64,000 nt of DNA from positions 186,001 through 250,000 of the forward strand of contig NZ_PJJO01000058.1 of NCBI RefSeq assembly GCF_002929535.1, read 5' to 3'. Source of the stretch: Cryobacterium sp. Y11. GTDB taxonomy: Bacteria; Actinomycetota; Actinomycetes; Actinomycetales; Microbacteriaceae. Of this stretch, positions 2,826-41,783 are shown piece after piece; the first letter of the stretch is position 1, and each line of letters starts with the position of its first letter. The notes beneath the pieces are model-generated. The model saw only the letters and a list, made by a program, of their open reading frames with translations, searched no databases and had not been told where the DNA came from. The position numbers and the translations under genes were made by a program.

Positions 2826-3049
2826 GTGGTCCGTTCGCTTTTCTAACGGATGCCCCGCTCGGCATGCGGGTCGTCGTGCGCACGCGCATTTCCGGTGGGT
2901 ACACCGATGCGCTGGGGTTTCTGCGCAGCCGCGACGCGGCATCCGTTTCGGTGGAAACCAAGCGCGGGCTAGTAAGACTGGCCATGGTCGACGTGGTCGC
3001 CGCGAAAGAGGTGCCGCCGGCGCCTGAGCCGCGGGTGCGCCGAGGTTAG
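2822..3049 (+). CDS. Small SH3-like domain protein
   Basis: A 75-residue protein starting at an ATGA overlap with ktrA, so it is the third gene of the operon. The sequence (GMRVVVRTRISGGYTDALG ... VDVVAAKEVPPAP) resembles the short N-terminal SH3-like domain found in front of some actinobacterial GNAT acetyltransferases such as Rv0428c. Here that domain stands alone with no acetyltransferase behind it. Its stop codon (TAG, 3047-3049) overlaps the stop codon of the convergent regulator gene (3046-3048). Function unknown; family assignment is from memory of the motif. Confidence 0.65.
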   Translation: MSGPFAFLTDAPLGMRVVVRTRISGGYTDALGFLRSRDAASVSVETKRGLVRLAMVDVVAAKEVPPAPEPRVRRG

Positions 3050-3774
3050 GTCTCGGGAGCGGCGGCCGGATCGGAAACGATGGGCGGCTCGACGGATGGC
3101 GCCCCGGACGGGAGCGGGTCGCCCCAGTCAGCGCCGAGATGAACCATGCAGAGGTTCGGGCCGACGAAGGGGAGGAGCTGCACCGTGCTGTCGTCGTGGC
3201 CGAGGGTGCGGGAAACCTGTTGGATCAGGCCGAGGTGCACGGCGCAGACCACGCCGGGGTTGGCCCGGGCTGCCTCGCGGAATGGGCAGGCGGTGAGCGC
3301 GATCGATTGGCCGGTAGCGTCCGGTTGTGGATCGAACTCGAGTTGATCGAGTAGTTCGATGAGCGGTTCGGCGCCCGTGCCGGTTGACGCGGAGAGCCCG
3401 CCGGCAAATGCTGCAGACCATTTCTCGCCGGCGCGAATGGCTCGGGCACGACCACCATCGTCGTCCTCGGCCAGCGCACCGGCCAGGGCGTCACTGAGCT
3501 GATCGTTCAGATCGCCGCGGGGCGCGCGCACAGCGCTGAAGCGGATGCGCGGTCGCCCGCGCTGGCCCGACCGGTCGGGCTCCCGTTCAATCAGCCGAGC
3601 CGACTGCAGCTGGTCCAGATGAAACCGGGCCGTTGTCACGTGCAAGTTGAGGTGCGTGGCCACCGCAGTCGCGTCGAGCGGCACGGTGGAGTCGACCAAA
3701 AACTCCAGCACACGTCGCCGTACTGGCGACGCCAACGCGGCGTGCCAGGCGGGACTGCGCTCTTGGGGATCCAC
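3046..3774 (-). CDS. Winged-helix regulator with C-terminal Cys/His ligand set (SufR/ArsR-like), copy 1
   Basis: A 242-residue regulator. Residues 10-80 form a winged helix (ASPVRRRVLEFLV, then a recognition helix near HVTTARFHLDQL). The C-terminal part has C163-P-F, C177-A-V-H180 and C209. This spacing resembles the cysteine pattern of SufR-type repressors that carry an iron-sulphur cluster, so a redox or Fe-S sensing role is an inference. The paralogue at 7467-8156 has the same pattern, and the two bracket the pdhABC operon. The start is GTG 3774, 6 nt after a TACTCT box that lies within an inverted repeat, implying leaderless transcription and autoregulation. Zinc binding instead of Fe-S is possible. 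Confidence 0.82.
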   Translation of the reverse strand: MDPQERSPAWHAALASPVRRRVLEFLVDSTVPLDATAVATHLNLHVTTARFHLDQLQSARLIEREPDRSGQRGRPRIRFSAVRAPRGDLNDQLSDALAGALAEDDDGGRARAIRAGEKWSAAFAGGLSASTGTGAEPLIELLDQLEFDPQPDATGQSIALTACPFREAARANPGVVCAVHLGLIQQVSRTLGHDDSTVQLLPFVGPNLCMVHLGADWGDPLPSGAPSVEPPIVSDPAAAPET

Positions 3775-21727: not shown

Positions 21728-21832
21728 TGAGTGCCGTTTAGAACTGCGCAGATTTGAACGAAATCGCTGTTTCGCAGGGCTGATTGGGGTCGCTAGGCGA
21801 CGTTCTCCGCAGTTATCCAATGCCCCGCGTAC

Positions 21833-34036: not shown

Positions 34037-36256
34037 ATGGACACCGTGGCTCGCAGCATCTATATCACCAGCGCAGAAGGCAATACCGGCAAGTCGAGCA
34101 TCGCCCTCGGCGTGCTTGACACCCTCACCCACCTCGTCGAGCGGGTCGGCGTGTTCCGACCGGTCGCCCGTACCGCTACCGAGCCCGACTATGTCGTCGA
34201 GCTTCTCCTTGGCCACTTGCAGGCGAACGCCGGCCCCGGCACCGCCGCCGTCCAAACCTACGAGCAGAGCATCGGTGTCAGTTACGACGACGTTAACACC
34301 GATCCAGACGCCGCCCTGGCCGCGATCGTTGCGCGGTACAAAGCTGTCGAAGCCAACTGCGACACCGTCGTCGTTATCGGCAGCGACTACACCGACGTCG
34401 GCAGCCCCACCGAGCTCGCCTTCAACGCACGCATCGCCGCCAATCTCGGTGCCCCAGTGCTGCTCGTGCTCGGCGGCCGCGTCGGTCCCGGCGAGGGTGA
34501 ACGTCTCGGCCAGAGCGACGCCCGCTCCGCCGTAGATATTGGCCAGCAGACCGACGTGGCGCTCGCGGAATTGCGCGACGAACACGCATCCGTTCTGGCG
34601 ATCATTATCAACCGGGCCGACGAGAACGCCCTGCCGCAGATCATTGAAGCCGTGCGCGCCACGACCAACGCTCAGCCGGCGCGGTCGGGCGGAGCCTTCG
34701 GCGTGCCGATTTGGGCCATTCCCGAAGACCCCTATCTCGTTGCCCCGAGCATGCAGAGCATCATGGAGGCCACAGAGGGAACCCTGATGAAGGGCGACCC
34801 CGCCCTACTCGCCCGCGAAGCGCTCGGCGTTGTCGTGGCCGCCATGTCGATGGTCAACGTGCTCCCGCGCCTCATTGAGGGCGCCGTCGTTGTTGTTCCC
34901 GGCGACCGGGAAGACGTGTTGCTCGCCGTGCTGTTGGCCAACGCTTCCGCGACGTTCCCGTCAATTGCCGGCATCGTGCTGAACGGCGGCTTCGAGCTGC
35001 CCGACGCTATTCAACGCCTGATGGAGGGCCTCGCTCCCTCGCTGCCGATCATCAGAACTGCGCTCGGCTCGTACGACACGACCATGCGCATCACGCGCAC
35101 CCGCGGGCGCCTCGCCGCGGACTCGCAGCGCAAGCACGACACAGCGCTGGCGCTGTTCGAGACCCACGTCGACGCATCCGCTCTGCTCGACCGGCTCGAT
35201 GTCAGCCGGGCCGAGGTCGTCACGCCGCTCATGTTCGAGTACGCGCTACTCGAGCGCGCCCGGCAGAACCGCCAGCACATCGTACTGCCGGAGGGCGAGG
35301 ATGACCGCGTGCTGCGCGCCGCCGCTACCCTGCTGGCCCGCGATGTGGTCGAGCTGACGATTCTCGGCGAGGAGTTCGAGGTGCGCTCGCGCGCGATCGG
35401 CCTCGGCCTCGACATTTCCAAGGCCAAGGTCGTGAGCCCGTACGACGATCTGTTGCGCATCAAGTTCGCTCAGGAATATATGCAGTTGCGAGCACATAAG
35501 GGAATCACGCGCGACCAGGCCAATGAAACCGTCACCGATGTGAGCTATTTCGGCACCATGATGGTGCAGCTTGGCCTCGCCGACGGCATGGTTTCCGGCG
35601 CGACGCATACGACCGCGCACACTATTCGGCCGAGTTTCGAGATCATCAAAACGCAGGCCGGTGTCGGAGTGGTATCGAGCGTGTTCCTGATGGCGCTCGC
35701 TGATCGGGTGTTGGTCTACGGCGACTGCGCCGTCATCCCGGTTCCGACTGCTGAGCAGCTCGCGGACATCGCCATCTCGGCCGCGGCGACGGCGGTGCAG
35801 TTCGGCATCGAGCCGCGCATCGCGATGCTGTCGTACTCCACCGGAACCAGCGGCGAGGGCGCCGACGTCGACAAGGTGCGCACCGCCACTGCGCTCGTCC
35901 GCGAGCGCCGGCCCGACCTGCTGGTCGAGGGTCCCATTCAGTACGATGCAGCAGCGGATGCCGCGGTCGCCGCCACCAAGATGCCCGGTTCCACCGTGGC
36001 TGGCCGCGCCACCGTGTTCATCTTCCCCGACCTCAACACCGGCAATAACACCTACAAGGCTGTGCAGCGAAGCGCCGGCGCTGTCGCGATCGGACCTGTT
36101 CTGCAGGGCCTGCGCAAGGCGATCAACGATCTCTCGCGCGGCGCGCTCGTGCAGGACATTGTGAACACCGTGGCGATTACGGCCATCCAGGCGGCCGGGC
36201 TGACGGATGCCGCGACCCCGGCTCTGGACGCAACTCCGGCCGGAGCAACCCGATGA
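34037..36256 (+). CDS. pta: Phosphate acetyltransferase (long form)
   Basis: A 739-residue Pta that converts acetyl-CoA and phosphate to acetyl phosphate. The N-terminal BioD-like P-loop domain (SAEGNTGKSSIALGVL) and the central DRTGG domain mark the long regulatory form. The C-terminal catalytic domain (from about residue 405) has VLPEGEDDRVLRAA, FGTMMVQLGLADGMVSGATH and VFIFPDLNTGNNTYKAVQRS. ATG 34037 lacks a good ribosome-binding site; GTG 34046 is an alternative. It overlaps ackA by ATGA, so both enzymes of the acetate pathway are coupled. Confidence 0.96.
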   Translation: MDTVARSIYITSAEGNTGKSSIALGVLDTLTHLVERVGVFRPVARTATEPDYVVELLLGHLQANAGPGTAAVQTYEQSIGVSYDDVNTDPDAALAAIVARYKAVEANCDTVVVIGSDYTDVGSPTELAFNARIAANLGAPVLLVLGGRVGPGEGERLGQSDARSAVDIGQQTDVALAELRDEHASVLAIIINRADENALPQIIEAVRATTNAQPARSGGAFGVPIWAIPEDPYLVAPSMQSIMEATEGTLMKGDPALLAREALGVVVAAMSMVNVLPRLIEGAVVVVPGDREDVLLAVLLANASATFPSIAGIVLNGGFELPDAIQRLMEGLAPSLPIIRTALGSYDTTMRITRTRGRLAADSQRKHDTALALFETHVDASALLDRLDVSRAEVVTPLMFEYALLERARQNRQHIVLPEGEDDRVLRAAATLLARDVVELTILGEEFEVRSRAIGLGLDISKAKVVSPYDDLLRIKFAQEYMQLRAHKGITRDQANETVTDVSYFGTMMVQLGLADGMVSGATHTTAHTIRPSFEIIKTQAGVGVVSSVFLMALADRVLVYGDCAVIPVPTAEQLADIAISAAATAVQFGIEPRIAMLSYSTGTSGEGADVDKVRTATALVRERRPDLLVEGPIQYDAAADAAVAATKMPGSTVAGRATVFIFPDLNTGNNTYKAVQRSAGAVAIGPVLQGLRKAINDLSRGALVQDIVNTVAITAIQAAGLTDAATPALDATPAGATR

Positions 36257-37587
36257 CCGCGGTTCTCGTCGTCAACTCGGGGTCGAGTTCCTTTAAATAC
36301 CAGCTGATTGACATGGACACCGAGACCACCCTCGCGAGCGGTCTGGTCGAGCGTATCGGCGAGCTCATGGGGCACTCGTCGCATTCGGTTGCTTCGGGCG
36401 TAGCTGCTTCGGTGGCGTCGGGCGCGGGTGTCGATATGACTTCTTTGATAGCGTCGAGCGCAGCTTCGAGCACGGCGACGCGCGTGATGACCAGCCTGGT
36501 GGCGCAACCGGCGACGCAAACAGAGGTTGCGGCATCCGCTTCACAAAAATGGAAGCGCGAACTTCCCATCCCAGACCACACCGCCGGATTCGCGGTCATG
36601 CTGGAGGCGTTCGCCACCCACGGTCCCTCGCTCGGCACCCACCCGCCGGTCGCGGTGGGGCACCGGGTCGTGCACGGCGGGGCCCGGTTTCACGAACCCA
36701 CCCTGGTCACGCCGCAGGTAGAGCGTGACATTGACGAGTTAGCAGCGCTTGCTCCGCTGCACAATCCGGGCGCGTTGCAGGGTATCGTGGCCGCCGAGAT
36801 CGCTTTTCCCGCTGTGCCGCACGTGGCCATTTTCGACACGGCCTTTCACCAGACTCTCCCGCCCGAGGCGTTCACCTATGCGATCAACGCGGACCTGGCC
36901 GAGCGGTTTCGAATCCGGCGCTACGGGTTTCACGGCACGAGCTACAGCTTCGTCTCGCGTGCCGGTGCGGAATTTCTCGGCCGGAAGCTTACCGACCTGA
37001 ACCAGATTGTGCTGCACCTCGGCAACGGAGCATCGGTTTGTGCCGTGCGCGGCGGCCAATCGGTGGAAACGAGCATGGGTATGACCCCGCTCGAGGGGCT
37101 CGTCATGGGTACCCGCTCTGGCGACATCGACGCCGGCGTGCTCTTTCACCTGCACCGCCGTGCTGGTCTCGACATTGACGATCTCGACACCCTGCTCAAC
37201 CGCGGGAGCGGACTGCTCGGCCTCACCGGTCGCGGCGATATGCGCGACGTGATCATGGCCGCCGAGGCTGGCGACGGTCCATCCCAGCTCGCGATTGACG
37301 TCTACGTGCACCGGCTCAAGCACTACGTTGGCGCCTACTTTGCCCAGCTCGGGCGGGTCGACGTGATCTCGTTCACGGCGGGGGTCGGCGAGAACGATCC
37401 CATGCTGCGTGCTCGCACGCTCGGCGAGCTCGAGGCATTCGGCATCCGTATCGACCCGGCACGCAATGCCGCCACCGATCGCGGCCCGCGCGTTATCAGC
37501 ACGGACGACTCCGCGGTCACCGTGCTCGTTATTCCCACCAACGAAGAGCTGGAGATCGCCCGCCAGACCCTCGCCACGGTGCGCTAG
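36253..37587 (+). CDS. ackA: Acetate kinase with an Ala/Ser-rich insertion
   Basis: A 444-residue acetate kinase, about 45 longer than usual. Catalytic landmarks are intact: VNSGSSSFKY (Asn8), GHRVVHGG, IFDTAFHQT, GFHGTSY, MGTRSGDID and FTAGVGEND. The extra length lies at residues 41-97, a low-complexity Ala/Ser/Thr/Val stretch between the first domain strand pair and KRELPIPDHTAGF. It has no counterpart in standard AckA. The enzyme transfers phosphate between acetyl phosphate and ADP. The stop codon TAG is part of the first unit of a tandem repeat that continues downstream. Confidence 0.95.
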   Translation: MTAVLVVNSGSSSFKYQLIDMDTETTLASGLVERIGELMGHSSHSVASGVAASVASGAGVDMTSLIASSAASSTATRVMTSLVAQPATQTEVAASASQKWKRELPIPDHTAGFAVMLEAFATHGPSLGTHPPVAVGHRVVHGGARFHEPTLVTPQVERDIDELAALAPLHNPGALQGIVAAEIAFPAVPHVAIFDTAFHQTLPPEAFTYAINADLAERFRIRRYGFHGTSYSFVSRAGAEFLGRKLTDLNQIVLHLGNGASVCAVRGGQSVETSMGMTPLEGLVMGTRSGDIDAGVLFHLHRRAGLDIDDLDTLLNRGSGLLGLTGRGDMRDVIMAAEAGDGPSQLAIDVYVHRLKHYVGAYFAQLGRVDVISFTAGVGENDPMLRARTLGELEAFGIRIDPARNAATDRGPRVISTDDSAVTVLVIPTNEELEIARQTLATVR

Positions 37588-37715
37588 CTCGCCTGGCCCG
37601 CCTGGCCCGCCTGGCCCGCCTAGCCCGCCTGGCTCGCGCCTGGCTCGCGTAGCTCGCCTGGCTCGCGTAGCTCGGGCAGCCTCGTCGCGCCTGGCTCGCG
37701 CCTGGCTCGCGTCCG
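37582..37715 (+). repeat. Degenerate tandem repeat of 9-11 bp units after ackA
   Basis: Units of the form GCCTGGCCC or GCGTAGCTC repeat about a dozen times, three of them exactly (37591-37617). The ackA stop codon lies in a CTAGCTC unit at the left edge. No spacers of CRISPR type are present. Confidence 0.8.
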
Positions 37716-37728
37716 CCCGCCGGTCGCT

Positions 37729-37815
37729 GGTACGTAATGCCGGTAAATCTGGGACGCACCGAGCGGCCATGGCCTCATGCCCGGCGTGTCGCGAATATTG
37801 CCGGTGTTACGTGCG
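37729..37815. repeat. Left inverted palindrome flanking the DUF559 gene
   Basis: About 86 bp. Read inwards from the left it matches the reverse complement of 38825-38911 without gaps, with conserved outer blocks GGTACGTAA..CCGGTA.ATC and CCGGCGTGTC.CGA and a variable centre. Each copy is also internally palindromic (GGTACGTAAtgCCGGTAAAT against AATATTGCCGGTGTTACGTGC). It ends 5 bp before the stop codon of the nuclease gene. Confidence 0.85.
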
Positions 37816-37819
37816 CGAC

Positions 37820-38728
37820 TTACCACCACGGCTCGTTCTGGCCGCGCAATTGGCGACCGCGATGGCGATCCCGGACCCATCGTGCGTCAGCAACCGTGCG
37901 TTCGATAGTCGCGAGCGTCGTCTCCCATTCATACATGATGTGGCGGTAGGACAATCGAAGGGTTCGGCGGCCCAGCCCCTCGACCATGAGGTCTCGGTCG
38001 TAATCAGAGATGAATTTGGTCGCCCCGTGCCACTGCCTGCCATCGATCTCGAGTGCGACACAATCGTCAACGACGAGGTCCTCGTAGATCGAGCCGACTC
38101 TCGCCTGCGCGACGACGGCAAAGCCGCGATGGCGCAGCCGTCGTCGCGTCAGAGTCTCGAGCCCGGAGTCTGCCGTGTCCTCCATCTCCCGAATGCCGGG
38201 CTGAAGTCGTGCCGGTGCGAGCACGCAGAGGTGGTGTACTTGCGAGGCGGTGAGGAACTTGAGATGGAGTGCCGATTCCAGACATGCGATGGCGTGTTCT
38301 TCGTTGAGACAATGGATAGCCTGCCAGACGGCTTCCACGGGGTCGACCATCCACGACGTTCCGGCAAGAGCGAAGCGCGGCTTTGCTCCGTGAAAATGAA
38401 GACTTCGCCCGCTCGGGTCGGCGCTCGGGCGCGCGGTCTCGCCGCCCCCGCGGGCATCCGCTGGACGCATCAGGTGGAGTGCCGAGTCCACGCCGCACCA
38501 CACATCAGACCGATGCACGGCACTGACGCAGGCAATTTGGGCGTGCAATGCCGCGGCTTGACGTTGCTCGGCATCGGCGTGTTCGCAGACATAGGTGCCG
38601 CGAGCGGCCCTGGCGATAAGGCCGAGGTGCAGTGCAGCCCGAATTTCCCGCGCGCTCACGCCGCTCCGAAATAGTTCGTCGGTCGTGGCGACATGACCGA
38701 GTGAGCAAATCAACTGAAGTGGGCGCAT
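37820..38728 (-). CDS. DUF559 nuclease-like protein with AbiEi-type winged helix
   Basis: A 302-residue protein from ATG 38728. The N-terminal 50 residues (GHVATTDELFRSGVSAREIR, then LIARAARGTYVCEHA) form a winged helix like that of AbiEi-type antitoxin/regulator domains. The C-terminal 110 residues are a DUF559/Vsr-like domain of the PD-(D/E)xK nuclease fold: DLVVDDCVALEIDGRQWHGA supplies the acidic residues and DYDRDLMVEGLGRRTLRLSY the following helix and strand. Biological function of such proteins is not established. The gene is enclosed by matched inverted hairpin repeats, which is the main reason to suspect a mobile or self-maintaining element. The 45 residues upstream in frame read like non-coding sequence. 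Confidence 0.85.
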   Translation of the reverse strand: MRPLQLICSLGHVATTDELFRSGVSAREIRAALHLGLIARAARGTYVCEHADAEQRQAAALHAQIACVSAVHRSDVWCGVDSALHLMRPADARGGGETARPSADPSGRSLHFHGAKPRFALAGTSWMVDPVEAVWQAIHCLNEEHAIACLESALHLKFLTASQVHHLCVLAPARLQPGIREMEDTADSGLETLTRRRLRHRGFAVVAQARVGSIYEDLVVDDCVALEIDGRQWHGATKFISDYDRDLMVEGLGRRTLRLSYRHIMYEWETTLATIERTVADARWVRDRHRGRQLRGQNEPWW

Positions 38729-38824
38729 GCCGAGATGATGCCGGCTCCGACTCGGCTGCGAGGTTCGGTCGGCAATTCTGGGGAGAAACGGATGCTGCGC
38801 CCGGCTGGGGAGGAGACATCCGTT

Positions 38825-38911
38825 GGGTAATACCGGTAAAAATCGTGACACGCCGGTGCTCAATGCGCCGTCAGACGGCGTGTCTTAGATCTACCGGTTT
38901 TACGTACCGCG
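38825..38911. repeat. Right inverted palindrome flanking the DUF559 gene
   Basis: Reverse-oriented partner of 37729-37815. Of 86 aligned positions the outer 33 and the block 53-82 agree at most positions, while the centre differs but keeps hairpin potential (CGCCGTC...GACGGCG). It lies about 95 bp upstream of the nuclease start. Confidence 0.85.
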
Positions 38912-38989
38912 ATAGACAGGGTCGGGCGCTGTCGCTGCGGGCGCGTAGCGCGTGACGAATCGGCGCGGCCGAGTGTCGGTGGGGGCAAG

Positions 38990-38995
38990 TACCAT
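38990..38995 (+). promoter_or_regulatory. Leaderless -10 box of dnaX
   Basis: TACCAT is followed by 7 nt and GTG 39003, which fixes the dnaX start at VVTALYRRYRP, the expected N-terminus of the family. Confidence 0.6.
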
Positions 38996-39002
38996 TGGAA
39001 GC

Positions 39003-41783
39003 GTGGTTACCGCCCTGTATCGCCGCTACCGGCCAGAGACCTTTGCCGAAATGATCGGTCAGTCCCAAGTGACTGATCCGCTGATGACGGCGCTGCGCAC
39101 AAACCGGGTGAATCATGCCTATTTGTTTAGTGGTCCGCGCGGCTGTGGCAAGACGACGTCGGCGCGCATTCTTGCGCGCTGCCTCAATTGCGCCGAGGGT
39201 CCAACTGACACTCCCTGCGGTGTCTGCCCCAGCTGTGTTGAGCTGGCCCGTGACGGTGGCGGCTCCCTCGACGTCGTCGAGATCGACGCGGCCAGCCACA
39301 ACGGTGTCGATGACGCCCGCGACATTCGCGAGCGTGCGATCTTCGCGCCCGCCCGTGACCGCTACAAAATCTTTATCCTCGACGAGGCGCACATGGTGAC
39401 GCCGCAGGGCTTCAACGCCCTGCTCAAGATCGTCGAAGAGCCGCCGGAACACGTGAAGTTCATCTTTGCGACCACCGAACCCGAAAAGGTGATCGGCACC
39501 ATCCGTTCGCGTACTCACCACTATCCGTTCCGGTTGGTGCCGCCGGGGCCGATGCTCGAATACGTGCAGCAGATGTGCGACGCCGAGAAAATGATTGTCG
39601 CGCCCGGAGTGCTGCCGCTCGTTGTGCGCGCCGGCGGAGGCTCGCCGCGCGACACCCTGTCGCTGCTCGACCAGCTCATGGCCGGGTCCGACGGGCAGTC
39701 GATTGAGTACGAGCGCGCCGTGGCGCTGCTCGGTTACACCAGCGCGTCACTGCTCGACGAAGCCGTCGAGGCCATCGGCGCGCGCGATGCCGGGGCAGCA
39801 TTTGACGCCGTTGACCGGGTTATTCAGACCGGGCAAGATCCGCGCCGGTTCGTTGAAGACCTCCTGGAGCGGATGCGAGACCTCATTATCGTCGCGGCCA
39901 CGAGCGTCGCCGGCGCCGCAGCGGTGCTGCGCGGAGTGCCACAAGACGAGCTCGAACGCATGAGCGTACAGGCCTCGGCGTTCGGACCGGCCGAGCTCTC
40001 GCGCACCGCCGATATTTTGAACGCCGCGCTCACTGAGATGAGCGGGGCTACCTCGCCGCGCCTGCACCTCGAGCTGATGATCGCCCGCGCGCTGATTCCC
40101 GCGAGCGATGACACGACGCGCGGTGCGCTCGCCAGAGTCGAGCGCCTCGAGCGTCGCATCGGAGTCGACGGATTCACTGCGCCCGCTGGTGCCGCTGGTG
40201 TGCCCGCCGGTGGTGCCGCTGCCGTGCCGGTTGGTGCATCCGCCGCTGCGCTCGCTGGGGCCGCGGCTCGGCCGGCTGCCACCGGCGCGAGTTCCCCAAA
40301 TGGCGATCTCGGCACGCTCGATCACCGGGTGGGAACGTCAGTCCCACCCGCCACGGCCCCGCGGGCTGGCGGCTTCGCCGCTCCCGCCTCTCAGCTGCCG
40401 TCCGCCGTGAGCTCGGCCGAGCCAGGGTCCGCTTCGCCGTCCGCAACCGGAGCGACCTCCGCCCGTCCGCTTGCCGAGCCCGCCATCCCAGCAACGCAAG
40501 CTGTCCGCTCTGCCGTGGTCCCCGGAGCCCCGGTCTCGCTGCAGCAGCTCAAGGACGCCTGGCCGGAGATTCTCGAAGCAGTAAAAACAGAGAAAACGAC
40601 CGCGTGGCTCGTCGTCTATACCGCGCACGTACTCAGTCTGAACGGCGACGTGCTCGCCCTCTCGTTCCCGAGCCATGCCGATGTCGAGAGTTTCAAGCAG
40701 CAAAAGGTCCCCGGAATGGGAACCAGCGACTTCTTGCGCACCGCAATCGTCGCGGTGCTCGGACTCCGGGTCAAGTTCATCGCGCGCGTCGACACCGGTC
40801 GCGAGATTTCTTCACCGAGCGCGTCATCGTCGGGCGACTCGACAACGGTCGCCGCGGAGCCTGCGCCAGCTGCCCCGACGCGCGAGTTGACTGACAGTGC
40901 GGCGGCGTCTGCGTCAACCGAACCGACTTCGGCCGAGCCCGACCTGGTTGGGACTGCATCCCCCGCAACGACGGTGCACGCGCCCAACGGAACGGAATCG
41001 GTCGTGCCGCTCGCGCCCAACGCGCCCCCGCCAACCGAAATCGCTCCCGACCTCGCCGCGTCACCCGCGCCCCCGTCAACGGAAGTCGCGGCCGCCGCTG
41101 GGCGAGAAGCGACGCCGCCCAATGCAGCACCGGCTGGTGTGTCACCCGTGGCGAAGTCGACCAGTGGGTGGGCCACGGTGGCCATTCCCGGCTCGCCCAA
41201 CGGTCCGGCGCTACCCATTGTTGCCGACGACACAACGGATGCCCCGGGCACTGCCGCCCCCGCCGGTCAGCTACCGAACGCTGCCCCGTTCCCGCCGTCG
41301 ACGGCCGTGCCGTCGCCAGCTCCGCGGCGCCAGGATGAGCCGCCGTTCGACGATGTGCCCCCGCCGTTTGACGACGATGATGCGCCGCCCGAGATGGACG
41401 CACCCGCCGAGGAACGCGTGCCAAACTACGAGGCGCATGTTGAGGCATCCGCTTCGCATCCGCGCGCGGAGCAGGGTCGACAGCCTCAGAACTCGGGCCA
41501 GCCCGCCGTGGGTCAGCAGGGTTCCGGCCAGCCGGCCGCCGGCCAGGCCGCTGCCGGTCAGCCCGCTGTGGGCCAGCAGGCATCCGGTCAGCAGGGCGGG
41601 TCGGCCCAACGCCAGCATCCGAATGCTTCCGGCCAGCGCGACAGTGCGAAGGACCGGTCGCGCGCGCCATCGTTCGCCGAGAAGCAGCGCTATGGCGAAG
41701 CCGTCGTGCGCGAGATTCTTGGTGCGACTTTCATCGAGGAACAGCCCTATTCCGCAGCACCCCGAACCAGAAACGACCACTAG
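39003..41783 (+). CDS. dnaX: DNA polymerase III subunits gamma/tau
   Basis: A 926-residue clamp-loader ATPase. Residues 1-370 are the canonical core: YRRYRPETFAEMIGQ, Walker A GPRGCGKT (44-51), the zinc module C63-x8-C72-x2-C75-x2-C78, Walker B ILDEAH and the SRC-like IRSRTHHY. The long C-terminal half is Ala/Pro/Thr-rich and poorly ordered. It includes a tau-like segment near LQQLKDAWPEILEAV and a Gly-Gln-Pro-Ala repeat near residues 833-865. recR follows 3 bp after the stop. Confidence 0.96.
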   Translation: MVTALYRRYRPETFAEMIGQSQVTDPLMTALRTNRVNHAYLFSGPRGCGKTTSARILARCLNCAEGPTDTPCGVCPSCVELARDGGGSLDVVEIDAASHNGVDDARDIRERAIFAPARDRYKIFILDEAHMVTPQGFNALLKIVEEPPEHVKFIFATTEPEKVIGTIRSRTHHYPFRLVPPGPMLEYVQQMCDAEKMIVAPGVLPLVVRAGGGSPRDTLSLLDQLMAGSDGQSIEYERAVALLGYTSASLLDEAVEAIGARDAGAAFDAVDRVIQTGQDPRRFVEDLLERMRDLIIVAATSVAGAAAVLRGVPQDELERMSVQASAFGPAELSRTADILNAALTEMSGATSPRLHLELMIARALIPASDDTTRGALARVERLERRIGVDGFTAPAGAAGVPAGGAAAVPVGASAAALAGAAARPAATGASSPNGDLGTLDHRVGTSVPPATAPRAGGFAAPASQLPSAVSSAEPGSASPSATGATSARPLAEPAIPATQAVRSAVVPGAPVSLQQLKDAWPEILEAVKTEKTTAWLVVYTAHVLSLNGDVLALSFPSHADVESFKQQKVPGMGTSDFLRTAIVAVLGLRVKFIARVDTGREISSPSASSSGDSTTVAAEPAPAAPTRELTDSAAASASTEPTSAEPDLVGTASPATTVHAPNGTESVVPLAPNAPPPTEIAPDLAASPAPPSTEVAAAAGREATPPNAAPAGVSPVAKSTSGWATVAIPGSPNGPALPIVADDTTDAPGTAAPAGQLPNAAPFPPSTAVPSPAPRRQDEPPFDDVPPPFDDDDAPPEMDAPAEERVPNYEAHVEASASHPRAEQGRQPQNSGQPAVGQQGSGQPAAGQAAAGQPAVGQQASGQQGGSAQRQHPNASGQRDSAKDRSRAPSFAEKQRYGEAVVREILGATFIEEQPYSAAPRTRNDH
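41496..41610 (+). repeat. In-frame Gly-Gln repeat in the dnaX tail
   Basis: Codons for GQPAVGQQGSGQPAAGQAAA and continuing give repeats of G-Q-[PAQ]-[AS]. The DNA units GGCCAGCC and GGTCAGCAGG recur, so the array probably varies in length between strains. Confidence 0.7.

Follow-up and report, generated by a model that had tools for sequence, protein, structure and literature searches.

The REP-associated tyrosine transposases (RAYTs) and their repetitive extragenic palindromes (REPs, REPINs) are a well-known case in which a nuclease residing in a genome has dispersed palindromes of its own. Rickettsia palindromic elements (RPEs) are another group of palindromes, and these can lie within genes without breaking the reading frame. 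REPs flank the RAYT genes, and how many REPs a genome has seems to depend on the cognate RAYT; syntenic RAYTs can be flanked by REPs of different classes (an 'orthoswitch'), REPs decay once the RAYT has been lost, and in 2013 the way in which REPs are disseminated was described as unknown (PMC3686654). RPEs and REPs located inside genes are mentioned in a second article, which also describes CGTC-type repeats, including the RPE of R. conorii, as apparently lacking a dedicated transposase (PMC3733652). Here we analyse a locus of Cryobacterium sp. Y11 in which a comparable layout is built around a non-homologous enzyme. The window, a stretch of 64,000 nt of contig NZ_PJJO01000058.1, contains a nuclease gene (37820..38728, minus strand) that is bracketed by two palindromes of a family, here called type 1, whose further copies are dispersed in the genome, and the nuclease and these palindromes probably form a functional analogue of the RAYT/REPIN pairing.

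The initial annotation, made from the letters of the window, had described two elements of equal length (37729-37815 and 38825-38911) with reverse-complementary outer blocks, each able to fold on itself and together enclosing a single gene, and all of these features were recovered. The type-1 palindromes, as bounded by a profile model, occupy 37727..37816 (minus strand, 3' side of the gene) and 38821..38910 (plus strand, 5' side), within 4 nt of the earlier positions, and both have the longer arm towards the gene. They are imperfect palindromes of about 87 nt with arms of about 29 nt, and their blocks pair as inverted repeats over 33 nt at 79% and 30 nt at 83% complementarity. Folding of each element alone as DNA gave -19.5 kcal/mol (z -1.6) and -19.3 kcal/mol (z -3.1), the first being unexceptional on folding energy alone. 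Two matches to the arm pattern lie in the window, whereas 100 shuffled sequences had 0.02 on average and in no case two; the pattern was derived from these two copies, and the wider evidence therefore comes from copies elsewhere. At six loci of the window type the 3' palindrome lies 7 nt beyond the last matched codon and the 5' palindrome 93-95 nt from the start, the two being oppositely oriented; seven listed loci of other clades have the same orientation on both sides. The outer motif varies by clade (CCGGTA, TCGGAG, GATGGAG or GAGGAG), and the outer ends of the aligned copies are of the GTACGTAA type or other, a common GTAG/GTGG tag being absent by inspection. A known RNA family was also considered and ruled out, as Rfam gave no match at an expectation value (E) of 1 or less in seven loci.

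The linkage of gene and palindromes was observed in nearly all close homologues, of which nineteen were found (E <= 6e-63), the 17 loci in named records all belonging to Cryobacterium. Type-1-like palindromes occur on both sides of the gene in 17 of the 18 close homologues with both flanks in hand (profile model, E <= 1), with one weak side at L023 (E 0.008); another locus (L033) reaches the contig edge and has the palindrome on the visible side. Since the type-1 model was trained on many of the tested copies flanking close homologues, the similarity of one flank to the other serves as an independent test, and by local similarity of the two 450-bp flanks 15 of the 17 close homologues score no lower than the 99% level set by 667 control windows. 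Related loci are part of the cross-locus null (maximum 415), and their presence makes it stricter. The earlier suggestion that protein and palindromes belong together is borne out by these counts. A random placement of palindromes with respect to the genes, which the initial annotation had named as a finding that would speak against it, was not seen in the flank test or in the copy numbers below, and neither, among the close homologues with both flanks in hand, were relatives with an intact gene and no repeats, the one exception to paired palindromes being a locus with a broken gene (L034).

In the sequences compared, palindrome type follows the nuclease rather than the species, and this is the strongest result of the analysis. 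At L035 and L036 the gene likewise stands on the ackA side of the locus and encodes a nuclease 33-37% identical to six type-1 proteins, with the reading frame open to about residue 282, and the palindromes are of a different sequence, type 2, with AACTGCGGAGA outer arms. L035 and L036 have AckA proteins that are 96% and 95% identical, respectively, to the one of L020 (C. glaciale), and the hosts are therefore close relatives, whereas the nucleases are 36% identical and the palindromes are type 1 at L020 and type 2 at the other two loci. Between L020 and the window locus (L001), AckA is 77% and the nuclease 76% identical, and the palindrome type is shared. In one genome (G050) a type-1-like nuclease coexists with a type-2 nuclease, and palindromes of its own accompany each of them. 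Trained on nine copies at L035, L036 and L214, the type-2 model scored 67-83 bits on these training copies and at most 19.7 bits at 23 other loci given to it, while the type-1 model found nothing at the same three loci or at ten other non-type-1 loci. Across the genus, type-2 matches at E <= 1e-11 were found at 18 places. The three genomes that have type-2 nucleases, G011, G047 and G050, account for 15 of them (nine training copies beside genes and six dispersed), and G019, G015 and G020 for one apiece. Weaker type-2 matches were found in 34 further genomes; among the type-2 matches score alone separates the type-2 genomes and number does not, and the weaker ones are probably other palindrome types caught by a model with few base pairs. 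Dispersed copies were also observed to match the resident type, with the CCGG outer block present in 23 of 24 copies in G000, G053 and G029 and in none of 12 in G021 and G040; these counts take each element once from the best 150 of 189 matches, some sites being common to relatives, weak copies of G021 and G040 being missing and three elements on contig C47 occurring in two overlapping loci.

Dispersal of the palindrome was observed in the window's own genome, where the arm pattern (<= 3 mismatches) gave 14 matches against one in the reversed control. Twelve of the 14 are palindromes, two at the gene and ten elsewhere, three of the latter being clustered on C47; L015 and L016, arm matches with 3 mismatches, showed no palindrome and were dropped. 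The solitary copies that the initial annotation had proposed to look for are thus present. In an alignment of 44 copies (own genome and gene-flanking copies in relatives) 83.6% of the cells are paired, and paired positions change on both sides, with a covariation score of 0.259, where shuffles scored 0.137 and slid structures no more than 0.076; kinship inflates the contrast with the shuffles, and the structure, read from the same sequences, is favoured over its slid versions. The nucleases found in this genome are of type 1 and type 3 only. A solitary type-2-like palindrome at 21733-21824 of the window (AGAACTGCGCAGATTT ... TTCTCCGCAGTTAT) is probably a relic. Three type-1 palindromes and one type-2-like palindrome lie within about 1.5 kb at about 4968-6489 of L305 (G000:C47:14000-24000), and a profile search of this cluster region found no nuclease gene.

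The number of type-1 copies goes with the gene. A median of 24 type-1 matches per genome was found in genomes with a close homologue (n=19) and of 4 in those without (n=33; Mann-Whitney p 5e-7), in a comparison that counts both strands, is uncorrected for phylogeny and uses a model from gene-bearing genomes only; it leaves out G011, G047, G049, G046 and G056, and adding these to the gene-less group gives p 2e-7. Presence and absence of single palindromes were also observed between genomes. The flanks of eight sites were searched in 18 genomes and three of them could be interpreted. The L143 site holds a type-1 palindrome in G053, G000 and G047, a type-2 palindrome in G011, which has a type-2 nuclease, and other DNA in G019, and 13 genomes are empty there; the L145 site is empty in at least eight genomes and occupied in at least three, G021 and G040 (both sites) and G034 (L145) having been judged from search matches without alignment. 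At the L162 site the palindrome lies in frame inside a gene for an Rce1-like CAAX protease (Pfam PF02517, above cut-off) in G029 and G020. These in-gene palindromes (L162, about 3001-3090; L133, 12862-12951) belong to two Cryobacterium species and are absent from relatives: the two protease genes have 69 and 65 residues between two conserved motifs, compared to 30-40 in six relatives without the palindrome. A seventh relative (L206) aligned without the motif being shown, and G053 gave no match to most of the protease gene region. As the flanks have diverged between species, exact palindrome ends and target duplications are unreadable. At the L151 site G040 differs by about 5 kb. About 1.6 kb near a common palindrome is present in G053 and absent from G029 (L138 3198-4780 compared with L157).

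The gene itself was found at a fixed place. It is the only gene between the two palindromes and between its neighbours, which we take to be ackA (36253..37587, plus strand) and dnaX (38952..41783, plus strand); both served as queries for the comparison of loci. Because ackA and/or dnaX adjoin the gene in 17 of the 19 close homologues, window included, it looks inherited in place and does not look like a jumping gene. The earlier proposal of a self-contained mobile unit of gene and hairpins is not supported, the palindrome alone being dispersed and variable between species. From genomes without a close homologue 29 dnaX loci were fetched, ten of them with ackA in view. In eight of these ten (L102-L108, L123) a distance of 69 to 301 bp separates the ackA match from the dnaX match and the model search found no palindrome between them, the exact junctions that would show a precise absence of the 1.18-kb unit being unreadable. 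At the other two, L110 and L112, the gap between ackA and dnaX is 0.98 and 0.87 kb, the nuclease gene is undetectable and the interval is possibly the scar of a lost gene. One weak type-1-like palindrome was seen at each of the two (L110 2900-2987 and L112 2740-2827). A nuclease fragment beside a palindrome was found in G056 and G049.

More distant members of the nuclease family were also found with palindromes of their own. A second nuclease in the own genome (L002, 27% identical) is bracketed by type-3 palindromes (GCGCATAACTCCTGCAATTT), whose arm gave 15 half-sites in this genome and none in the control; the hits comprise three palindromes at the L002 gene, three complete ones elsewhere and single arms. 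Among the distant Cryobacterium paralogues five of eight pass the flank test, with palindromes of types 3, 4 and 5. An extra inverted repeat with ATTTCCTGAATTAGCCAC arms, resembling type-4 palindromes, was seen at 990-1091 of L021, a locus with a type-1 pair. Of 20 small homologues from other genera of the same order, hand-picked from about 45 rows of small open reading frames (ORFs) among the matches listed, eight pass; the test was not fairly placed at L267, L277, L284 and L285, where the C-terminal part alone was matched and one flank window lay inside the gene. Six of the eight passing genes are palindromic by a stricter measure (for example L283, L266 and L272/L276), and L269 and L273 share flank repeats in one orientation only, which by the flank test are not palindromes. 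The stricter measure, the lower of both orientations with a 99% null level of 27-28, was passed by L266, L272, L274, L276, L278, L279, L281 and L283. Flank-to-flank alignment had replaced an ungapped palindrome finder that missed most distant cases, possibly owing to bulges. Pfam PF18741 was tried as an order-wide handle and dropped: 97 of 119 genomes across the order match it, most matches listed sit in large ORFs and not in small proteins, and the window's genome has no match at that cut-off.

The encoded protein has 302 residues from an ATG start and joins an N-terminal AbiEi-like winged helix to a C-terminal Vsr/DUF559/MTES_1575-like PD-(D/E)xK domain, a composition proposed in the initial annotation that holds, though its Pfam scores are all under the curated cut-offs (MTES_1575, 31.4 against 38.2 bits; AbiEi_4, 24.6 against 25 bits; DUF559, 17.4 against 20.6 bits). 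The winged-helix region (residues 6-47; 38588..38713, minus strand) is recognised by AbiEi_4 (E 2.8e-5) and by PADLOC, which reports N-terminal similarity to AbiEi (E 4.6e-5). The nuclease-like domain (residues 186-289; 37862..38173, minus strand) was delimited by residue invariance, a predicted model and fold matches, and MTES_1575 matches 17 of 17 family members at E <= 0.01. Invariant across 17 aligned homologues are, among others, E191, Q208, D217, E227, D229, H234, D242, D246 and R258, and from the family motifs we take E191, D217, E227, D229, H234, D242 and D246 to belong to the PD-(D/E)xK-type active site. This invariance is as would be expected of a working PD-(D/E)xK/Vsr-type nuclease. 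In an AlphaFold2 model with a mean predicted local distance difference test score (pLDDT) of 61.8 and a poor middle part, the C-terminal part matches the endonuclease-like protein 3hrl (Z 11.8 over 90 residues, root-mean-square deviation 2.0), the I-Bth0305I homing endonuclease domain 3r3p (Z 10.7) and Vsr 1cw0 (Z 8.4). The Holliday junction resolvase Hjc (Z 7.9) and, for the N-terminal part (residues 1-51), the AbiEi antitoxin 6y8q (Z 6.3) were also matched, though matches with Z < 8 possibly reflect just a common arrangement. A sequence search of the PDB gave 3hrl as the sole match (E 0.26), and NCBIfam assigned no family to the three members tested.

The ORF list contains an alternative ORF of 347 residues starting at 38863, within the 5' palindrome; the close homologues align from the ATG at 38728 and not from this longer start. 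The space between ackA and the left palindrome (37588-37720) is filled by short GC-rich direct repeats with units GCCTGGCCCG / CTGGCTCGCG. Cargo of a plasmid or phage was ruled out, as the locus matched no plasmid DNA, the protein search returned one plasmid record at 28% identity, and the searches gave no match to the nuclease in phage records.

The likeness to REP/RAYT systems, or 'REPtrons', extends to the flanking palindromes, the dispersed cognate copies, a type-1 abundance tied to the gene, the switch of type at a syntenic locus and decay, and a REP/RAYT-like layout with an unrelated nuclease fold, as first suggested for this locus, is supported. The enzyme, however, is of the PD-(D/E)xK/Vsr type with a winged helix whereas a RAYT is a HUH Y1 transposase, the repeats are about 87 nt with arms of about 29 nt and show no GTAG/GTGG tag, and a switch of palindromes here goes along with a replacement of the nuclease. 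With a non-homologous enzyme and the REP tag missing, the system is not a member of the REP/RAYT group, though it probably works like one; by layout alone, its classing as a kind of REPtron is arguable. It resembles the DUF559/MTES_1575 restriction-endonuclease-like proteins (Vsr superfamily) in the C-terminal domain, in the matches of all 17 members to MTES_1575 and in the 3hrl fold, and differs from them in the N-terminal winged helix, the paired palindrome family and the sub-threshold scores of the window protein. I-Bth0305I, which we take to be an EDxHD homing endonuclease, and Vsr share the nuclease fold; here, in contrast, there are dispersed palindromes, and the neighbours are ackA and dnaX with no adjacent methylase or intron gene. 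AbiEi antitoxins share the winged helix, but no AbiEii nucleotidyltransferase toxin gene is adjacent here and the helix is fused to a nuclease domain. In-frame palindromes within genes recall the RPEs, from which the present palindromes differ in that their types go with nuclease types. A pairing of palindromic repeats with DUF559 or Vsr-like genes was reported nowhere in the open-access literature searched, as far as its text was accessible. We know of no repeat system that is paired with this nuclease fold.

Several other explanations were weighed. The palindromes might be operators through which the winged helix represses its own gene and a regulon, the nuclease fold being incidental or regulatory; palindromes are natural operators, an AbiEi-type winged helix is present, and one palindrome stands upstream of the gene, at 93-95 nt from the start in the six window-type loci. 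This we regard as unlikely because the catalytic-type residues are invariant in the 17 aligned proteins, the 3' palindrome lies just past the last matched codon in the same six loci, one copy is inside a coding gene and others occupy short intergenic spaces in which many relatives have nothing, whereas the sites of a regulon should stay where they are. A homing or gene-drive element, in which the nuclease cuts element-free sites or palindromes to provoke gene conversion and the palindromes act as homology arms carrying the gene, would agree with the closeness of the fold to the catalytic domain of I-Bth0305I and with the finding that one locus can house different nucleases and their respective palindromes, a pattern that an exchange of cassettes would produce; it is quite unlikely given that the gene stays at one locus in 17 of 19 close homologues and that solitary palindromes are dispersed and the gene is not.

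The remaining two explanations appear very improbable. In size and form, dispersed inverted repeats of about 87 nt resemble miniature inverted-repeat transposable elements (MITEs) and REPINs, and they could form the ends of an ordinary transposon in the manner of MITEs, or be REPINs that are mobilised by a RAYT from another part of the genome, with the nuclease as a passenger. The palindrome type, however, tracks the nuclease and not the host, and different types flank other members of the same nuclease family. Y1_Tnp (PF01797, RAYT-type) was found in none of 57 Cryobacterium genomes and in 5 of 14 control genomes by the same search, which covered this one transposase family; RAYT-driven REPs were ruled out on this count, a RAYT being very unlikely. 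An immune or addiction module, consisting of an AbiEi-like antitoxin/nuclease fusion with palindromes that protect or regulate it, was the alternative of the initial annotation and gained little support. Its N-terminal AbiEi similarity was noted above and PD-(D/E)xK nucleases are common in defence, but the interval contains no partner or other gene, the neighbours are housekeeping genes and the searches returned no phage record and a single plasmid record. We know of no immune or addiction system that includes dispersed cognate palindromes.

A nuclease with a cognate family of dispersed palindromes, functionally analogous to RAYT/REPIN with a non-homologous enzyme, is therefore the explanation we prefer, with a probability of roughly 60%. 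A number of observations weigh against it. This is a computational analysis in which no binding, cutting or movement was observed. Although both of its flanks were available, the broken gene at L034 showed just one palindrome; the flank test was failed by three of the eight distant paralogues, by 12 of the 20 small homologues of other genera and by a Tsukamurella plasmid homologue (24/28), and was passed by one of the three type-2 genes (L036). Besides the construction of the copy-number comparison given with its result, four genomes without a close homologue (G018, G026, G028 and G031) hold 27-32 type-1-like matches. Type-2 counts fail to separate the genomes, the 37, 22 and 54 matches of G011, G047 and G050 standing beside 63, 58, 55, 38 and 32 weaker ones in G030, G028, G031, G007 and G039. 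At the L143 site G047 has a type-1 copy yet a type-2 nuclease, although this copy is readable as a relic. Turnover is slow, as 14 of the 20 stretches with palindromes taken from G053 and G021 have an alignable counterpart among those fetched from their sister genome (G029 or G040). Part of the flanking DNA differs as well between the sites that were compared, no target-site duplication was established, and the presence or absence of single palindromes could reflect loss as well as gain.

From the fold and the linkage we infer that the nuclease recognises, cuts and moves its palindromes. The winged helix and the nuclease domain would together recognise the cognate palindrome, either as a duplex or as an extruded hairpin or cruciform, a form suggested by the presence of Vsr and Hjc among the nearest folds. 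The palindrome would then be nicked or cut, and repair or replication may copy it to new places or keep the copies alike, while the gene would stay in place as the palindromes disperse. Upon loss or replacement of the nuclease, the old palindromes would decay and a new type would spread.

On balance, we lean towards the broader view that the winged-helix/Vsr-fold nucleases of Actinomycetota are a large and independently evolved counterpart of the RAYTs, in which each lineage may have a private palindrome type that is recognised, copied genome-wide (sometimes into reading frames) and replaced when the nuclease is exchanged, several non-overlapping systems per genome being possible. If this is true, a second, non-homologous enzyme has arrived at the same layout, which would then be something that evolution reaches more generally and would not be peculiar to HUH transposases. 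A function could be suggested for proteins of actinobacteria that now carry the annotation DUF559 or 'AbiEi family antitoxin domain-containing', and a class of intergenic and in-frame palindromes in these genomes would be explained. The system would also supply many natural enzyme-palindrome pairs of differing specificity, even within one cell, as with types 1 and 3.

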